A stretch of 64,000 bases of DNA from a bacterium (GTDB lineage Bacteria > Armatimonadota > UBA5829): the NCBI GenBank assembly GCA_021372295.1, contig JAJFUS010000005.1:86759-150758 (forward strand), read 5' to 3'. Below are positions 2,424 to 50,389 of the stretch, piece by piece; the first letter of the stretch is position 1, and every line of letters begins with the position of its first letter. The position numbers and the translations under genes are program-made. The notes beneath the pieces were generated by a model that saw nothing but the letters and a program-made list of their open reading frames with translations, ran no database searches and had not been told where the DNA came from.

Positions 2424-2665
2424 GTTCAGCTTTATGAGATTTTCTTGGGGCTCCGCCCCAATCCCAGCCAGTGGCTTTGCCTCTGGACTCCACAAGGAAA
2501 CCAGGTTTCCTTGATCTTCTGACCCGAACTTAATTATCCCCCTTAAGGGGGATAATTAAGTTCGCTACGGGGGTTCAGGGGTCCGGCTCCTGGCGAGGTT
2601 AAGGGGCAGAGCCACTTATGGGAGTCTGAGGGTAAAACCCTCAGATAATTCTCGCAGAACCGAAC
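2424..2665 (-). repeat. Palindromic mobile-like element, copy A (full length)
   Basis: This is a nearly complete copy of a roughly 245-bp family found nine times in the window, here in reverse orientation. Its ends are imperfect terminal inverted repeats: GTTCAGCTTTATGAGATTTT at 2424 and, read on the other strand from 2665, GTTCGGTTCTGCGAGAATTA. Inside are conserved hairpins (GGGGCTCCGCCCC; AAGGAAACCAGGTTTCCTT; CTGAGGGTAAAACCCTCAG). The centre is a perfect 38-bp palindrome at 2526-2563, half-site GAACTTAATTATCCCCCTT. It lies between divergent genes, upstream of both. No coding capacity is seen in it. Confidence 0.85.
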
Positions 2666-5339: not shown

Positions 5340-5585
5340 GTTCAGTTCTGCGAGAATCATCTGAGGGTTTCACCCTCAGACTCCCATAAGGGGCTCCGCA
5401 CCCCTGAACCCGCGCTGGGGCCGCGGGCCCCAGACCCCCATCCCTGAATTGGTTACCCCCGTTTTACGGGGGTAACCAATTCAGGGTCAGAAGGTCCAGG
5501 AAACCGGGTTTCCTTGCAGAGTCAAGAGACAGAGTCTCTGACGGGGTTTGGGGCAGGGCCCCAAGAAAATCCCGCAAGACTGAAC
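5340..5585 (+). repeat. Palindromic mobile-like element, copy B (full length)
   Basis: A full-length copy (246 bp) with both ends: GTTCAGTTCTGCGAGAATCA at 5340 and, read inward from 5585 on the other strand, GTTCAGTCTTGCGGGATTTT. Internal hairpins include CTGAGGGTTTCACCCTCAG and CAGAGACAGAGTCTCTG. The central hairpin is at 5442-5486, with 21-bp arms beginning CCCTGAATTGGTTACCCCCG and a TTT loop. It fills the space between two convergent genes and ends 8 bases from the stop codon of the PfpI gene. Confidence 0.88.
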
Positions 5586-43353: not shown

Positions 43354-43369
43354 CATGAGGGGTTTCAAT

Positions 43370-44227
43370 ATGAACTATACAAGCGAAGAAGCAAATATTC
43401 TCGTTCAGGCGCTGCCGTATATTCAACGATATGCCGGAAAGATCATCGTGATTAAATACGGCGGCAATGCCATGATCGACGATGATCTCAAAATCGGTGT
43501 GTGCAGGGATGTCGTGCTGATGCATTACGTGGGCATGAAGCCGATTCTTGTGCACGGCGGCGGGCCTGAGATCAGTGCGGTGATGCAGAAGCTGGGCAAA
43601 GAGCCTGAGTTTGTGGACGGCAGACGCGTGACCGACGCAGAAACGATGGAGATTGTCGAGATGGTGCTTGCGGGCAAGACCAATAAGGGCATAGTATCGA
43701 TCATTAACAATCTTGGTGGTCGGGCTGTCGGATTATCCGGTAAGGACGCCAATCTGATTGTCGCGGAAAAGGCCGATGGTGATGTCGATCTGGGGTTCGT
43801 TGGGCAGGTGGCGAAGGTCAACCCGATGATCCTTACCGATCTTTTGGAGCACAATTATATTCCTGTGGTTTCGTCAGTAGCGATCGGGCCTAATGGGGAG
43901 AGTTTTAACGTCAACGCCGATCATATCGCCGGAGAAATAGCGGCCGAGGTCGGCGCAGCCAAGCTCATGATGATGACCGACGTGCCGGGGATATACTCCG
44001 ACTTTGCGGACAAATCCACGTTCATATCCGAGTTGAAGGTGGCTGACGCGAAGCGGATGATTCGGTCGAAGCAGATAGGTAGGGGTATGATCCCGAAGGT
44101 AGAGGCTTGCATGACGGCTCTGGCGGGTGACGTCGAGCGCACGCACATCATCGACGGCACCATGTCTCACTCGCTTCTGATGGAGATTTTTACCGATACA
44201 GGGATCGGCACGATGATTGTGCCTTAG
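43370..44227 (+). CDS. argB: Acetylglutamate kinase
   Basis: Second step of arginine synthesis: phosphorylates N-acetylglutamate with ATP. The start at 43370 follows AGGGG with correct spacing; the ATG at 43355 is part of the terminator tail region. 285 residues, normal. Seen: KIIVIKYGGNAMIDDDLK (nucleotide loop), LVHGGGPEISAVMQKLGK (substrate), GLSGKDANLIVAEKADG, and GMIPKVEACMTALAGDVERTHIIDG. First structural gene of the cluster argB-argD-argF-argG-argH; argC and argJ/argA are not here. Confidence 0.97.
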   Translation: MNYTSEEANILVQALPYIQRYAGKIIVIKYGGNAMIDDDLKIGVCRDVVLMHYVGMKPILVHGGGPEISAVMQKLGKEPEFVDGRRVTDAETMEIVEMVLAGKTNKGIVSIINNLGGRAVGLSGKDANLIVAEKADGDVDLGFVGQVAKVNPMILTDLLEHNYIPVVSSVAIGPNGESFNVNADHIAGEIAAEVGAAKLMMMTDVPGIYSDFADKSTFISELKVADAKRMIRSKQIGRGMIPKVEACMTALAGDVERTHIIDGTMSHSLLMEIFTDTGIGTMIVP

Positions 44228-44358: not shown

Positions 44359-45561
44359 ATGAAAACACAACAATTAGTATCCAGCGCCGAAACAATCGCG
44401 CTGTACGATCAATACGTAATGATGACTTACGGCAAGCAGCCTGTCGTGCTGGTTCGGGGCGAGGGATGCTTGGCCTACGATGCCGAGGGCAAGGAATATC
44501 TCGATCTTGTTGCGGGGATAGCAGTAAACGGCCTGGGGCACTGCCCGCCGAAAGTGGTCGAGGCCATTCGCAAGCAGGCCGGGATCCTCATGCACACAAG
44601 CAATCTGTATTATGTGCCTGGCCAAGCGCAACTAGCCAAGCTTCTGTGCGAAATATCGGGGATGAGCAAGGCGTTCTTCTGCAACTCCGGTGCGGAGGCA
44701 AACGAAGCCGCTATGAAACTCGTCAAAAAGGCGGCGAAAGTGTCGGGTCACCCAGAAAAGTGCGAGATAGTGACGGCATTGAAGTCGTTTCACGGTCGAA
44801 CTCTTGCGGCCATCACTGCAACGGGTCAGCCTAAATACCAGAAATCGTTCACTCCGTTGGTTCCCGGCTACAAATATATACCCTATAATGATATGGAAGC
44901 GCTCAAGGATGCAGTGGACGAGCAGACCTGCGCCATCATGATGGAACCTGTGCAAGGCGAAAGTGGAGTGCATCCGGGGACGGTCGAGTTTATGCAGACC
45001 GCTCGCGAGCTTTGCGACAAGTATGGCGCGGCACTCATTTTCGACGAAGTGCAGACCGGCCTTGGGCGAACGGGCAAAATGTTCGGGTTCCAGCAATTCG
45101 GGGTCGTCCCGGATGTGATGACCCTTGCGAAGACTCTCGGAGGCGGGTTCCCGATTGGGGCGTGCCTTGCGCGAGACAATTGGGCGGATGTATTCGAGCC
45201 GGGCGATCACGCGGCTACGTTTGGCGGGAATCCTCTCGCATGTGCGGCGGCCATAGCGGCGGTTACTGAGATTCGAGACGGCGGATGGGTCGAAAACGCG
45301 GATAAAGTGGGGGCGTATTTCAGGGAGCGGCTTGCCGATCTGCCTGGCGTGACCCAAGTCCGCGGACTTGGGCTGATGATTGCAGTCGATTTTGCCCAGC
45401 CGATTGCGAAGACTCTCGTAGCCAAGGCTCTCGAAGCCGGGCTGATTATTAATGCGACGAGCGATAATACGCTGAGGTTCGTGCCACCGCTTATTCTTAC
45501 GAAAGAACTGGTGGATCGAGCTGTTGGCGCTATCGCGGGAATTTTGAATTCTGAATTTTGA
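44359..45561 (+). CDS. argD: Acetylornithine aminotransferase
   Basis: PLP enzyme making N-acetylornithine. 400 residues. Signatures: YDAEGKEYLDLVAGIAVNGLGH, FCNSGAEANEAAMKLVKKA, FHGRTLAAITATGQPKYQ, LIFDEVQTGLGRTGKM with the PLP-contact Asp, and the PLP lysine in MTLAKTLGGGFPIGA. AAGGTAA lies before the ATG. The native C-terminus runs into a 2 x 14 base repeat (AATTTTGAATTCTG), and the stop is provided by it. It could also act in lysine synthesis (succinyl-DAP), as known for E. coli ArgD. Confidence 0.95.
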   Translation: MKTQQLVSSAETIALYDQYVMMTYGKQPVVLVRGEGCLAYDAEGKEYLDLVAGIAVNGLGHCPPKVVEAIRKQAGILMHTSNLYYVPGQAQLAKLLCEISGMSKAFFCNSGAEANEAAMKLVKKAAKVSGHPEKCEIVTALKSFHGRTLAAITATGQPKYQKSFTPLVPGYKYIPYNDMEALKDAVDEQTCAIMMEPVQGESGVHPGTVEFMQTARELCDKYGAALIFDEVQTGLGRTGKMFGFQQFGVVPDVMTLAKTLGGGFPIGACLARDNWADVFEPGDHAATFGGNPLACAAAIAAVTEIRDGGWVENADKVGAYFRERLADLPGVTQVRGLGLMIAVDFAQPIAKTLVAKALEAGLIINATSDNTLRFVPPLILTKELVDRAVGAIAGILNSEF

Positions 45562-45570: not shown

Positions 45571-45653
45571 TATGGTATATCAGAGCGATCACTGAGTCTG
45601 AGCTCTCTGCTCTCCACTCTCCGCTCTCAGCTATCTTAAGAGGAGATTAAAAC

Positions 45654-47069
45654 ATGTGGCAACGATTTACCGACCACGCTAAGCGGGTCATTTTCTCGGC
45701 TCAGGAAGAAGCCGGCAAGTTTGGGGACAATAACGTTTCCATCGAGCACGTGCTGCTGGGGCTTACAAGAGATCGCGGGTGCGGCGCGGCTCAGGCGCTG
45801 ATTTCGATGGGTGTGGACTTGAAAGAGCTTCGCGCCGATCTGGAGCAGAATACCGCCAGAGGGTCGGGTAAGCTCGGTGGAGATATGCAGCTTACGCCTC
45901 GGGCCAAGCGCGCAATCGACTACGCCTATGAGGAAGCCAGTGATTTGCAGGCCGACAAACTCTGCTCGGAACATCTGCTTTTGGGCGTAATTCGCCAAAA
46001 AGAAGGCCTGGCCGCTCGGACTCTCGCTAAGTTTGGGGTCGATCTGGATGCCGCGAGGCAGGCGGTTCGTGAGCAGCAGAGCGGCAAGTTGTTTGACGGA
46101 GTCGTATTCAAGAGCGAAGAAAGGCCTGAGGCGGCTGTCGAGCTGCGTGGAAAGAGCCTGCTCGACATCGCTCAGCTCAGCCGGGCGGAGATCGATGTCA
46201 TATTCGATATGACGCGCAAGCTCAAGGATGGAGTGATTCCTCCGTCAAGACAGCGCAGGATTCTCGCGGGCAAGACTCTGGCAATGATATTTGAGAAGCC
46301 GTCGCTGCGGACCCGGGTATCGTTCGAGACGGGCATATTCCAGCTCGGCGGGCACGGTATATACTTGGGGCCGAATGACATTGCCCTGGGCAAGCGCGAG
46401 AGCGTCGCTGACGTGGCGCGAACAATCGGCCGCATGTGCGACATCGTGATGGCTCGAGTCTTCGAACATGAGAAAGTGACCGGCCTGGCAGAATACGCCG
46501 GGGTTCCGGTGATCAATGCGCTGTCCGACCTTGAGCACCCGTGTCAGGCTTTAGCCGACTTTTACACGATTATTGAGCATAAGGGCAAGCTCGAAGGGCT
46601 TAAACTGGCGTTTATCGGCGACGGAAATAACGTTGCGCATTCGCTTATGCTACTTGCGGCTAAAGTTGGAATGAACTTTGCCATTGGTTGCCCGAAAGAC
46701 TATGAGCCTGACGAAAACGTCACGGCGAAGGCTCGCGAGTTCGCCAAAGAGACCGGCGCGACAATCGAGATTACAAACGATCCGATTGAGGCGGTGAAGG
46801 GCGCGGATGTGGTTTACACGGACGTATGGGCGAGCATGGGCCAGGAGGCCGAAGCTGAGGAGCGCGCGAAGACATTCGCCGATTTCCAGGTGAACAGTGA
46901 TCTTATGAGTCATGCCAAGCCCGACGCGATATTTGAGCACTGCCTGCCTGCGCATCGTGGATCGGAAGTCACTGACGAAGTGATCGACAGCAAGCAGAGC
47001 GTGGTCTTTGATGAAGCCGAGAACCGATTGCACGCGCAGAAAGCCGTGATGGTTCTGCTGGCGGGTTGA
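45654..47069 (+). CDS. argF: ClpC-type N domain fused to ornithine carbamoyltransferase
   Basis: Ornithine carbamoyltransferase (ornithine plus carbamoyl phosphate to citrulline) with an unusual N-terminus. 471 residues, about 160 more than normal. Residues 3-143 are a two-repeat Clp N domain (WQRFTDHAKRVIFSAQEEAG; EHVLLGLTRD; LTPRAKRAIDYAYEEA; EHLLLGVIRQ). The catalytic part begins near 163 and is complete: KPSLRTR (216-221, carbamoyl phosphate), EHPCQALADF (HPCQ 295-298), EHCLPAHRG (Cys430). The frame is uninterrupted, and the only strong ribosome site (AAGAGGAG) precedes the Clp part, so this is a true fusion. Thr6, Glu31, Thr81 and Glu106 match the residues that in Bacillus ClpC bind phosphoarginine (from memory). 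Confidence 0.93.
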   Translation: MWQRFTDHAKRVIFSAQEEAGKFGDNNVSIEHVLLGLTRDRGCGAAQALISMGVDLKELRADLEQNTARGSGKLGGDMQLTPRAKRAIDYAYEEASDLQADKLCSEHLLLGVIRQKEGLAARTLAKFGVDLDAARQAVREQQSGKLFDGVVFKSEERPEAAVELRGKSLLDIAQLSRAEIDVIFDMTRKLKDGVIPPSRQRRILAGKTLAMIFEKPSLRTRVSFETGIFQLGGHGIYLGPNDIALGKRESVADVARTIGRMCDIVMARVFEHEKVTGLAEYAGVPVINALSDLEHPCQALADFYTIIEHKGKLEGLKLAFIGDGNNVAHSLMLLAAKVGMNFAIGCPKDYEPDENVTAKAREFAKETGATIEITNDPIEAVKGADVVYTDVWASMGQEAEAEERAKTFADFQVNSDLMSHAKPDAIFEHCLPAHRGSEVTDEVIDSKQSVVFDEAENRLHAQKAVMVLLAG

Positions 47070-47093: not shown

Positions 47094-48281
47094 ATGTCAA
47101 AAACAGTAGTTCTAGTTTATTCAGGCGGGCTTGACACGTCCGTTTGTATCCCGATGATGCGCGAAGATTATGGTTTCGACCATGTAGTGACGGTGACGGT
47201 GGACGTGGGTCTGCCCGCCGCCGAAATCAAGCAAGCTGAGGAAAAGGCCAAGATGCTCGGCACCGAGCACTATACAATCGACGCCAGGCAGGAATTCGTG
47301 GACGAATACATCTTCCCCGCGATCAAGGCCAACGGCGATTACCAAGGTTATCCGATTTCTACGTCAATCGCGAGGCCGCTTATCTCGCTGAAGGCGGTCG
47401 AGATCGCAAAAAAGGTTAAAGGCGATGCATTCTGCCACGGCTGCACGGGCAAGGGCAACGACCAGTTCCGCATCGAGTTCGTGATGCGCGCGCTTATGCC
47501 CGACATGCCTATCATCGCCCCGATGCGCGAGCACACGATGACCCGCACATGGGAGATCGAATATGCAGAGAAGAAGGGCATACCTATCGGGCAGAGCAAG
47601 GACAAGATCTGGTCTATTGACGAGAACCTGTGGGGTCGCTCGATTGAGGGCGGTCACCTGGAGGAGCCTGATTACGCTCCGCCGGAAGAGATTTTCCATT
47701 GGACAAAGAACCCAGTCGATGCGCCAAACACTCCGACTGAGATCACTCTCACTTTCGATAATGGCGTGCCAGTGGCGCTTAATGGCCAGAAGATGAACTC
47801 TCTCGACCTGGTTCTGAAAGTGCATGAGATCGCCGGAACCAACGGCGTGGGCCGCGTGGACATTATGGAGGATCGAATCATCGGCCTCAAGGTCCGCGAA
47901 AACTACGAGTGCCCGGCTGCCCGCGTGATAATCCCGGCGCATAAGGCTTTGGAAGACTTGGTCTGCACGGCTGAGGAGCGCGCGTTCAAGATGCTGGTCG
48001 ACCAGCAGTGGGGCAAGCTGGCCTACGAGGGTCTGTGGTACGATCCGTTCAAGGACGACCTTGAGGCGTTCATCAACCGGATTCAGACCAGGGTCACCGG
48101 CGACGTCAAACTGCGGCTTTTCAAGGGGAGCTGCACTGTGATCGGCCGGGCGAGCAAGTACGCGCTCTACAACGAAGACCTGGCGTCGTTCGACTCCAAG
48201 ACGTTCGACCAGAGCGAGGCTGTAGGGATTGTGAAGACTCACGGCATGCAGGCGAGGATGTACCGGACGGTGAAAGACTAG
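47094..48281 (+). CDS. argG: Argininosuccinate synthase
   Basis: Joins citrulline and aspartate using ATP. 395 residues, normal. Signatures: VVLVYSGGLDTSVCIPMM (PP-loop), AFCHGCTGKGNDQFRIE (substrate loop), and SIDENLWGRSIEGGHLEEP. GGAGG lies 9 or so bases before the ATG. 24 bases separate it from argF, and a GNAT gene remnant follows at 5 bases. Confidence 0.97.
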   Translation: MSKTVVLVYSGGLDTSVCIPMMREDYGFDHVVTVTVDVGLPAAEIKQAEEKAKMLGTEHYTIDARQEFVDEYIFPAIKANGDYQGYPISTSIARPLISLKAVEIAKKVKGDAFCHGCTGKGNDQFRIEFVMRALMPDMPIIAPMREHTMTRTWEIEYAEKKGIPIGQSKDKIWSIDENLWGRSIEGGHLEEPDYAPPEEIFHWTKNPVDAPNTPTEITLTFDNGVPVALNGQKMNSLDLVLKVHEIAGTNGVGRVDIMEDRIIGLKVRENYECPAARVIIPAHKALEDLVCTAEERAFKMLVDQQWGKLAYEGLWYDPFKDDLEAFINRIQTRVTGDVKLRLFKGSCTVIGRASKYALYNEDLASFDSKTFDQSEAVGIVKTHGMQARMYRTVKD

Positions 48282-48286
48282 CTAGC

Positions 48287-48737
48287 ATGGAAGATTTAAT
48301 CGTTAGGCGCTATGAGCCTGAGGACAAGGATCAAGTCGTTGAGCTTTGGAGGCAGTGCAGCCTCATAGTGCCTCAAAATGACCCGAAACGTGATATCGAG
48401 CTCAAGATACGTCTCCAGCCGGAGCTGTTACTTGTCGGCGAGATCAATGGCCGTGTGATCGCCACTGTAATGGTCGGCTACGATGGTCATCGTGGGTGGA
48501 TCGACTACCTGGCCGTTTCACCCAGCCTGCGGCGCCGCGGAATAGGGACGGGCCATTATGAAAGCTGCGGAGGAGCGACTCAGAGCGCTGGGCTGTCCTA
48601 AGATAAACCTGCAGGTGCGAAACTCGAACAAGGGAGTAATCGCCTTTTATGAGCGAATCGGCTTTAAAGTCGATGATGTGATAAGCATGGGAATGCGGCT
48701 TTGGGAACACATTCGTGAAGCTCAGGAGACTGTATAA
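48287..48737 (+). pseudogene. GNAT acetyltransferase with single-base frameshift
   Basis: The first frame gives a YpeA-like GNAT start (VRRYEPEDKDQVVELWRQCS ... LAVSPSLRRRGIG); it then runs out of frame and stops at 48601. The C-terminal half (IMKAAEERLRALGCPKINLQ, VRNSNKGVIAFYERIGFKV, DDVISMGMRL) continues in another frame to a TAA at 48735-48737 that overlaps the argH ATG. The total length 451 = 3 x 150 + 1, so one base is extra, most simply in the GGG at 48550-48552. It may be a recent mutation, a sequencing error or programmed shifting. The intact protein would be about 149 residues. Confidence 0.75.
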
Positions 48738-50389
48738 TGACAAAAAAACTCTGGGGCGGAAGATTTTCAAAATCAACGGATAAGGCCGTGGAGGCATTCA
48801 CGGAGTCTATCTCGTTCGACTGCCGGTTGATCGAGCATGACATCCGCGGCAGCATCGCGCATGCGAAGATGCTCGGCAAATGCGGGATTATCCCCGAAGA
48901 TGACGCCAAAAAAATCGTAAGCGGGCTGCAGTTCATACTCGATGACGCGCTTTCGGGCAAAATCGTCTTCGATCCCAGTGCGGAAGACGTACACATGAAC
49001 GTTGAGAAGCTCTTATTCGAGCGAATTAGGGAGAGCGCGGGCAAGCTCCACACCGCTCGCAGCCGGAACGACCAGGTCTGCACGGATATTCGCCTGTTCC
49101 TCAAGGACGAGATCAAACGGATCGTCGGGCTGATTGTGGAGTTGCAGAGGGTGATTGTCGACCAGGCCCAGGCTAACGCCGAAGCGATCCTGCCGGGGTA
49201 TACGCACATGCAGCACGCGCAGCCGGTGCTGCTGGGTCATCACATGATGGCATGGTTCTGGATGATCGAGCGAGACAAAGCTCGCATGCTCGACTGTCTG
49301 AAGCGCGTCGATGTGCTGCCGCTCGGCTCGGGCGCTCTTGCTGGGACGACTTTTCCCATAGACCGGCAGATGGTCGCCGATGCGCTCGGGTTTACGGCCG
49401 TATCGGATAACAGCATGGACTCCGTTGCGGACAGAGATTTTATCTCCGAGTTCCTCGCGGCTGCGGCGATTTTGATGACGCATCTCTCGCGGTTTAGCGA
49501 AGAAATCATTATTTGGAATACGTCCGAGTTTAGGTTCATCGAGCTGGACGATTCGGTGACAACCGGCTCGTCGATCATGCCGCAGAAGAAGAACCCAGAT
49601 GTGGCCGAACTGGTGCGCGGCAAGAGCGCGAGGGTTATTGGCGACTTAATGAGCCTGCTGACACTACAGAAGGGACTGCCTCTGGCTTATAATCGAGATT
49701 TGCAGGAAGACAAAGAGCCGTTATTTGACGCCGTCGATGCCGTGCAGGGGTCGCTTGTGTGTTTTGCGCTGATGGTGAAGACCGCTAAATTCAACCTCGA
49801 ACGCATGCACTCGGCTGCAGGTGAAGCTTATTCGACCGCGACCGACCTCGCAGACCACCTGGTGCGGCGGGGGGTGCCGTTCAGAACCGCGCATGAGCAG
49901 GTTGGGTCGCTCGTGGCATATTGCGTGGAACAAAACAAAGAGCTTTTCGATCTCACGATAGCCGAAATAAAACAATTCGCGCCCGATGCGGCTGAAGATG
50001 TGGCGGCGGCGCTGACGGTGGAAGCGAGTGTCGCTGCCAGAAGCGCTGACGGAGGGACGGCGCTTTCCCAGGTCAATCGGCAGATCGAAAAGGCCCGTGC
50101 GATTCTTACTTGTGCGTTTTCATCTGAGGGTTTCACCCTCAGACTACCAAAAGGGGCTCCGCCCCTTAACCCCACCAGGAGCCGAGTGTCCCCTGGACCC
50201 CCGTTCCGAAGTTTGGTTCCCCCAAACGGAGGAACCAAACTTCGAGTCAGAAGGTCGAGGAAACCTGGTTTCCTTGCAGAGTCCAGAGACAGAGTCTCTG
50301 TAAATCAAAATACACAAGACTCAGTTGCCAGCCGAACATTTTACGAAAAAACCAGAAACATTTGTAGCTCTCGAGCGTCATGTATATGA
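48737..50389 (+). CDS. argH: Argininosuccinate lyase with repeat-derived C-terminal extension
   Basis: Last arginine step: cleaves argininosuccinate to arginine and fumarate. The ATG overlaps the GNAT stop (TAATG). Catalytic signature GSSIMPQKKNPDVAELVRGK; also KLHTARSRNDQVCTD and LPGYTHMQHAQPVLLGHH. Normal length is about 460 residues, and the enzyme ends near VNRQIEKARAIL. The frame then reads on through repeat copy H for another ~90 residues of low-complexity sequence (SSEGFTLRLPKGAPPL onwards) to a stop at 50387-50389. The extension is probably dispensable or disordered; the stop is two bases before the next ATG. Confidence 0.95.
   Translation: MTKKLWGGRFSKSTDKAVEAFTESISFDCRLIEHDIRGSIAHAKMLGKCGIIPEDDAKKIVSGLQFILDDALSGKIVFDPSAEDVHMNVEKLLFERIRESAGKLHTARSRNDQVCTDIRLFLKDEIKRIVGLIVELQRVIVDQAQANAEAILPGYTHMQHAQPVLLGHHMMAWFWMIERDKARMLDCLKRVDVLPLGSGALAGTTFPIDRQMVADALGFTAVSDNSMDSVADRDFISEFLAAAAILMTHLSRFSEEIIIWNTSEFRFIELDDSVTTGSSIMPQKKNPDVAELVRGKSARVIGDLMSLLTLQKGLPLAYNRDLQEDKEPLFDAVDAVQGSLVCFALMVKTAKFNLERMHSAAGEAYSTATDLADHLVRRGVPFRTAHEQVGSLVAYCVEQNKELFDLTIAEIKQFAPDAAEDVAAALTVEASVAARSADGGTALSQVNRQIEKARAILTCAFSSEGFTLRLPKGAPPLNPTRSRVSPGPPFRSLVPPNGGTKLRVRRSRKPGFLAESRDRVSVNQNTQDSVASRTFYEKTRNICSSRASCI
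50121..50300 (+). repeat. Palindromic mobile-like element, copy H, inside the argH frame
   Basis: Starts CATCTGAGGGTTTCACCCTC and ends at CAGAGACAGAGTCTCTG; the outer ends are lost. The central hairpin has 14-bp arms CGAAGTTTGGTTCC (50207-50220) and GGAACCAAACTTCG (50231-50244) with a 10-base loop. The copy is read in frame by argH. Confidence 0.85.

Follow-up and report, generated by a model that had tools for sequence, protein, structure and literature searches.

A ClpC-type N-terminal domain fused to ornithine carbamoyltransferase in Armatimonadota

The N-terminal domains (NTDs) of ClpC and ClpC1 from Bacillus subtilis, Staphylococcus aureus and Mycobacterium tuberculosis are built of two Clp_N repeats and carry phosphoarginine-pocket and groove residues. 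According to PMC12583610, residues T7, E32 and E106 of S. aureus ClpC are named at two phosphoarginine pockets, which act together with a hydrophobic groove that forms a second entry portal, and free phosphoarginine activates ClpC through the NTD (half-maximal at ~0.22 mM) while arginine does not. PMC9604228 gives a KD of 1.4 uM for phosphoarginine binding by the mycobacterial ClpC1 NTD. Cyclic peptides are reported to contact F2, F80 and E89 of M. tuberculosis ClpC1 (MtClpC1) in PMC10030653, and V14, Q17, H77, K85 and L92 in PMC7193532. The small mycobacterial Clp_N proteins ClpC2 and ClpC3 are reported to share ligands with ClpC1 (PMC10030653 and PMC10864484).

The window analyzed here, a stretch of 64,000 nucleotides from an Armatimonadota genome whose first nucleotide is position 1, encodes a protein that combines such a domain with a complete ornithine carbamoyltransferase (OTC). 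It resembles the ClpC and ClpC1 NTDs in its two Clp_N repeats and its pocket and groove residues but has no AAA+ modules, the domain sitting instead covalently on a metabolic enzyme. Like ClpC2 and ClpC3, it presents a ClpC-like receptor domain without an unfoldase and with groove-type positions kept, whereas those proteins are separate small decoys or self-repressors rather than part of an OTC. The anabolic OTC of Pyrococcus furiosus (1a1s; 56% identity) shares the whole catalytic fold, to which the window enzyme adds 164 N-terminal residues. Other Armatimonadota have ArgD-OTC fusions (704 and 737 aa; PF00202 plus OTC) that are alike in phylum and in being N-terminal fusions but join OTC to a pathway enzyme instead of a receptor domain and contain no Clp_N. 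No description of a Clp_N-OTC fusion was found in the open-licence PMC literature, nor was any paper there that pairs Armatimonadota with OTC or Armatimonadetes with arginine biosynthesis, and among the matches listed for OTC and ClpC degradation in that literature no fusion appeared in titles or abstract openings.

The fused argF gene and its neighbors

The features of the arg region of the window are as follows.

43355..44227 (+): argB, acetylglutamate kinase (TIGR00761 over cut-off)
44359..45561 (+): argD, acetylornithine transaminase (TIGR00707 over cut-off)
45639..45645 (+): Shine-Dalgarno-like AGAGGAG upstream of the Clp_N-domain ATG (sequence, scan)
45654..47069 (+): Clp_N-OTC fusion gene (argF), 471 aa plus stop (open frame, Pfam, NCBIfam)
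45654..46079 (+): ClpC-type N-terminal domain, residues 1-142, two Clp_N repeats
46080..46145 (+): linker, residues 143-164 (pLDDT <50 at 145-156)
46089..46091 (+): internal TTG, start of database record P0122 (record comparison)
46146..47066 (+): complete ornithine carbamoyltransferase, residues 165-471 (SLRT, HPCQ, HCLP and DVWASMG motifs)
47094..48281 (+): argG, argininosuccinate synthase (TIGR00032 over cut-off)
48737..50389 (+): argH, argininosuccinate lyase; a dispersed repeat makes up the C-terminal end of the frame (TIGR00838 over cut-off)

The frame of the fused argF runs without a frameshift from the ATG at 45654 through 471 codons to the stop at 47067-47069. Pfam placed two PF02861 (Clp_N) stretches (4.7e-25) ahead of both OTC domains (4e-66 and 2.4e-47), and the OTC half scored 435.7 bits against NCBIfam TIGR00658 (cut-off 280.85; residues 167-469), in agreement with a first-pass annotation, made from the sequence alone, that had read a Clp N domain before a complete OTCase. 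A sub-threshold ACT match was disregarded. SLRT, HPCQ, HCLP and DVWASMG are motifs of OTC. By these models the protein is ArgF, with ornithine carbamoyltransferase activity predicted, and it is not a ClpC unfoldase because the AAA+ modules D1 and D2 are missing, Pfam finding Clp_N and OTC only.

Alignment with ClpC NTD structures, which the first-pass annotation had suggested as a check, gave a sequence match of the Clp_N half without large gaps (5gui, 8xqu and others; best 8.3e-30), and 79 of 141 aligned residues were identical to the N domain of the same genome's ClpC. An AlphaFold2 model from an 18-row alignment had a mean pLDDT of 84.5 and a pTM of 0.67, with low confidence at 145-156 (the linker) and 393-396; these figures bear on the single domains and the linker, not on the relative placement of Clp_N and OTC. 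All 50 Foldseek matches listed were ornithine or putrescine carbamoyltransferases, headed by the P. furiosus OTC at 56% identity.

The Clp_N domain is hidden in database record P0122 (326 aa; 100% identical across the OTC part), which starts at the internal TTG (46089); no strong Shine-Dalgarno sequence was found at that TTG. By the same scan, a Shine-Dalgarno-like motif stands at the domain start in 28 of the 37 fused loci described below, the window included. Starts within the linker that have a Shine-Dalgarno sequence of at least 5 bases occur in six of the 37, the window not among them, and some genomes might therefore also produce a short form. Two other assemblies of the same genus (G242 and G244) encode the same full-length architecture at 87% identity, ruling out a chance assembly join; together with the unbroken frame, this disposes of the frameshift or assembly error that the first-pass annotation had listed as a possible refutation.

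The neighboring genes lie on the same strand in the order argB, argD, fused argF, argG, a short GNAT frame and argH. ArgB, an acetylglutamate kinase (NAGK), seems to have what we take to be the N-terminal helix of arginine-inhibited NAGKs, and end-product feedback is probably present already in the arginine pathway. Beyond residue 456, where the lyase model ends, the argH frame continues for ~93 residues into a ~180 bp dispersed repeat, a copy of which occupies 50122-50300; two further copies lie at about 2469-2646 (-) and 5357-5540 (+) of the window, and the genome has at least ~40 among the matches listed. The GNAT frame (48287-48601, in the argG-argH gap) seems cut short, perhaps by a frameshift, because it matches only model positions 6-91 of 147.

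Distribution and history of the fusion

Matches to the query occurred in 283 of 291 Armatimonadota genomes, and the OTC locus was inspected in the 110 with stronger matches. Thirty-seven loci were fused, 4 had a separate upstream Clp_N gene, 63 had neither and 6 were ended by a contig edge. The fused loci, which include one that begins at a contig edge within the domain (G053) and one that is frameshifted (G024), spread over 12 families within the phylum. The architecture, of which the first-pass annotation knew no described example, is that of a large Armatimonadota family.

In the search of protein databases that had been recommended, 69 of the 120 database OTCs nearest to the OTC half were fused. 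Either half used by itself as the query, N domain or OTC, retrieved fused proteins (444-817 aa among the matches listed). With longer fusions as queries, 119 of 120 matches listed were fused, under a length window that shuts out plain OTCs; the six fused entries with an organism name belonged to Chthonomonadaceae, Chthonomonadales or Armatimonadetes. Altogether 240 database OTC proteins were gathered, and the fused share (189) is inflated by the way sequences were collected; a single Clp_N domain was present in 163 of the fused proteins, two in 22 and three in 4. P0123, whose OTC half is 87% identical, is named Armatimonadota. Among the best 80 loci of a genome-contig scan, one (L150, Chthonomonadia, its OTC identical to that of G180) had a Clp_N domain in its flanks. 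The names attached to P0123 and L150 place the window in Armatimonadota. Across 20 Armatimonadota genomes, Clp_N matches fell in frames that were ClpC-, ClpB- or OTC-like by size and place, with few others unassigned.

Variant arrangements were also seen. Three genomes of one family (G203, G204 and G205) have a Clp_N gene directly upstream of the OTC gene, and in another family a stand-alone Clp_N gene of 165-173 codons directly precedes a Clp_N-OTC gene (L025-L028; G226, G223, G225 and G224). ArgD (PF00202) is fused straight to OTC at L106 1770-3881 (+) and L100 1288-3498 (+), the two frames scanned being Clp_N-free. Long frames of 704-866 aa are present in 8 of 9 loci of family f20, and P0302, P0304 and P0333 have a stretch resembling the N-part of T2SSE (PF00437) between Clp_N and OTC. 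P0082 joins four Clp_N stretches to a cytidine deaminase-like domain, an architecture which implies that the receptor domain may be able to move onto other enzymes.

The fusion is patchy even among near relatives. The closest genus members comprise two fused (G242 and G244) and one unfused (G243), and seven genomes of the same family (G234-G240) are unfused. Unfused homologs in relatives, which the first-pass annotation had thought could count against its reading, are thus real, but so are fused ones; the absence of the fusion from G243 and several same-family genomes indicates that the domain is dispensable for OTC catalysis, not that it is an artefact. The only Clp_N matches of G243 are four, in its own ClpC and in a ClpB-like frame. 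We therefore rejected a move of the domain to a free-standing gene there and conclude, since there is no further Clp_N match, that it is gone from G243.

A quick maximum-likelihood tree built on the OTC part requires 15 changes of the fused label, and well-supported branches force at least 9 of these. Resolution of the Clp_N tree is poor (11 of 66 inner branches starred); the fused domains of G210, G023, G025 and G227 fall among ClpC domains in it and most fused domains fall outside. Either repeated capture from ClpC or a single capture followed by many losses could have produced the pattern. Pairwise dN/dS was 0.024-0.119 for the Clp_N part and 0.016-0.166 for the OTC part (6 of 7 pairs computable in each case), values that are rough since several dS exceed 1. 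Judged by these ratios, the Clp_N domain is under purifying selection and is no decaying passenger.

Pocket and groove residues

The following codons specify the residues that matter most for the comparison with ClpC.

45669..45671 (+): Thr6, counterpart of T7 in S. aureus ClpC (phosphoarginine site 1)
45744..45746 (+): Glu31, counterpart of E32 in S. aureus ClpC
45894..45896 (+): Thr81, taken as a pocket residue
45906..45908 (+): Lys85 (K85), AAA1 contact in the ClpC resting state and cyclic-peptide contact in the groove
45969..45971 (+): Glu106, E106 of S. aureus ClpC

Thr6, Glu31, Thr81 and Glu106, which the first-pass annotation had picked out as ligand contacts, are all present (codons at 45669, 45744, 45894 and 45969). 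T81 we take to be a pocket residue. Thr6, Glu31 and Glu106 stand as contacts through their counterparts T7, E32 and E106 in PMC12583610; T81 was not found as a phosphoarginine-site residue in the accessible portion of that source. Residues R4, T6, E31, T81, K85 and E106 of the window give the string RTETKE, shared by 30 of 30 ClpC domains from the same phylum, which marks the domain as ClpC-type, as had been supposed, rather than merely generic Clp_N.

Of the 218 distinct domains nearest OTC, 167 have the same RTETKE set. If the pockets count as retained when positions 6 and 81 are T or S and positions 31 and 106 are E, both are present in 200 of these 218, a set that includes sequences retrieved via their Clp_N part, in 56 of 68 domains retrieved through the OTC half alone, and in 32 of 35 genome-locus domains. 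Random sets of ClpC-invariant positions were retained as highly in 2325 of 20000 draws for the 68 domains and in 1002 of 20000 for the 35. The genome's own ClpB N domain also matches three of the four pocket positions (Thr6, Glu31 and Glu106), so these residues are weak evidence taken alone. Pocket conservation as proof of phosphoarginine binding was rejected, because ClpB shares the residues and their retention is unexceptional. In McsB-negative genomes with a separate Clp_N gene the pockets have decayed: D, H or E replaces T81 in G203-G205, and in G054 E106 has become R and K85 has become Q. They are lost in the fused, McsB-positive family f16 (G059 and G060) and kept in the fused, McsB-negative G182 and G227 (assembly completeness 89-92%).

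For the groove we used positions 2, 14, 17, 80, 85, 89 and 92, drawn from the cyclic-peptide contacts of MtClpC1 and chosen after per-position retention had been viewed; position 77 was dropped because it varies in the ClpC set. Retention was 0.97 in the OTC-half sample (random ClpC-invariant sets as high in 14 of 20000), 0.94 in all 218 domains nearest OTC (163 of 20000) and 0.78 in the 35 genome-locus domains (1658 of 20000). The domain nearest OTC keeps the pocket positions at 0.98, and extra upstream Clp_N copies in the same proteins keep groove and pocket at 0.64 and 0.86. Groove retention falls to 0.45 in separate upstream Clp_N genes and to 0.42 in 300 Clp_N domains of OTC-less proteins, the phylum of which is mostly not known. 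The lower values in all three comparison groups suggest that it is the OTC-adjacent copy that retains the ClpC binding surface. The ClpC groove is a better preserved and more distinctive surface than the pockets.

Proposed role and alternatives

In the window's genome, a small CxxC-rich frame, a McsB-like kinase gene and clpC lie side by side (L038 4799-8788, -). The kinase matches PF00217 at 1.6e-50, and its best NCBIfam model is protein arginine kinase (306 bits against a cut-off of 385); its motif LTASPSNVGTG carries a Ser where we would expect the Cys of McsB. The CxxC-rich frame is McsA-like by position and by eye and had no family match in profile searches. PF01451 phosphatases, which we take to be the family of YwlE, gave 0 matches in this 98.7% complete genome, the control search being positive in 11 of 14. 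The reading of the first-pass annotation is supported in part, by a ClpC-type domain with its phosphoarginine-site residues on an intact OTC and by an McsB-like kinase gene beside clpC.

A McsB-family kinase was found in 169 of 291 genomes. Counts with and without it were 31 and 6 for fused, 33 and 30 for neither and 0 and 4 for separate-gene loci across all examined genomes, and 29 and 1, 30 and 19, and 0 and 3 when completeness was 90% or higher. The association between fusion and McsB was not significant when tested on independent pairs of the OTC tree (median p 0.5-0.625). Strict linkage was consequently rejected, and with the association lost on independent pairs the McsB link is suggestive only.

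The most economical account is that the OTC carries a working copy of the ClpC receptor surface, because the residues of that surface are retained; that the domain works like a ClpC receptor is suggested by residue retention only. We tentatively propose, at a probability of about 0.4, that the domain binds ClpC-like client or phosphoarginine ligands and tunes the enzyme, coupling arginine synthesis to protein quality control. Being in one chain with a complete anabolic OTC, the ClpC-type receptor domain would likely bind the ligands of the cell's own ClpC, which may be unfolded segments marked with phosphoarginine, and ligand level would tune arginine synthesis. More speculatively, occupancy might change OTC activity, assembly or location via the flexible linker in the OTC trimer. 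In a bolder and distinctly doubtful form of the proposal, the Armatimonadota OTC would be a phosphoarginine-gated enzyme whose captured ClpC receptor reads the McsB damage mark and switches arginine synthesis.

An unlikely but serious alternative is that the domain is a docking handle by which ClpC or its adaptors McsA and McsB recognize the OTC and bring it to arginine phosphorylation or ClpCP degradation, so that the level of the enzyme and not its activity would be controlled. In PMC12583610 the ClpC NTD is reported to mediate binding of the McsA/McsB complex and to touch the M-domain and AAA1 at rest; K85, one of the resting-state contacts, is kept in 94% of domains nearest OTC, and the McsB-like gene and ClpC are encoded together. 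Against this, other resting-state contacts are less well kept, the window having His in place of R9, a position where about 71% of domains have Arg, and R122 being mixed, and client binding explains the phosphoarginine and groove residues equally well.

Less probable still is a structural role, in which the domain stabilizes or changes the OTC oligomer or helps folding and its ligand sites are just inherited from ClpC. In other bacteria, OTC oligomers are altered by N-terminal extensions of the enzyme. Of the four pocket residues, three occur in ClpB too and are hence partly a fold signature, family f16 kept the domain after losing the pockets, and unfused relatives exist without it. In the OTC-half sample, however, groove positions are retained well beyond random ClpC-invariant positions, and retention next to OTC is far better than in the extra copies; the low-confidence linker argues against a rigid scaffold.

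Sensing of free arginine as end-product feedback on OTC, which the first-pass annotation had entertained, would suit a gene for arginine biosynthesis and a ClpC pocket that binds guanidinium with phosphate, yet it is disfavored as very improbable, given that phosphoarginine and not unphosphorylated arginine is reported to have activated ClpC through the NTD (PMC12583610). The resemblance of ArgB to the feedback-inhibited type likewise speaks for an input from stress or proteostasis rather than for simple feedback by arginine. That the fusion is an assembly, frameshift or start-site artefact has a negligible chance and was rejected, the internal start of P0122 and the Shine-Dalgarno-bearing linker starts in 6 of 37 loci being outweighed by an intact frame, the same architecture in many independent assemblies of 12 families, and the domain-start motif in 28 of 37, with none at an internal start in the window.

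Armatimonadota have placed a protease receptor domain on a core biosynthetic enzyme and, by the ratios above, keep it under selection across a phylum, while automatic annotation names the fused protein plain ornithine carbamoyltransferase and sometimes trims the domain. The coexistence of fused, adjacent-gene and domain-less relatives makes its role testable by comparison. If the domain still reads ClpC ligands, it would link protein damage, through arginine phosphorylation, directly to arginine supply, and it would offer a soluble reporter of natural origin, coupled to an enzyme, for the ligands of the ClpC NTD. If the enzyme is phosphoarginine-gated, an amino-acid pathway would be wired to a mark placed on its own product residue.
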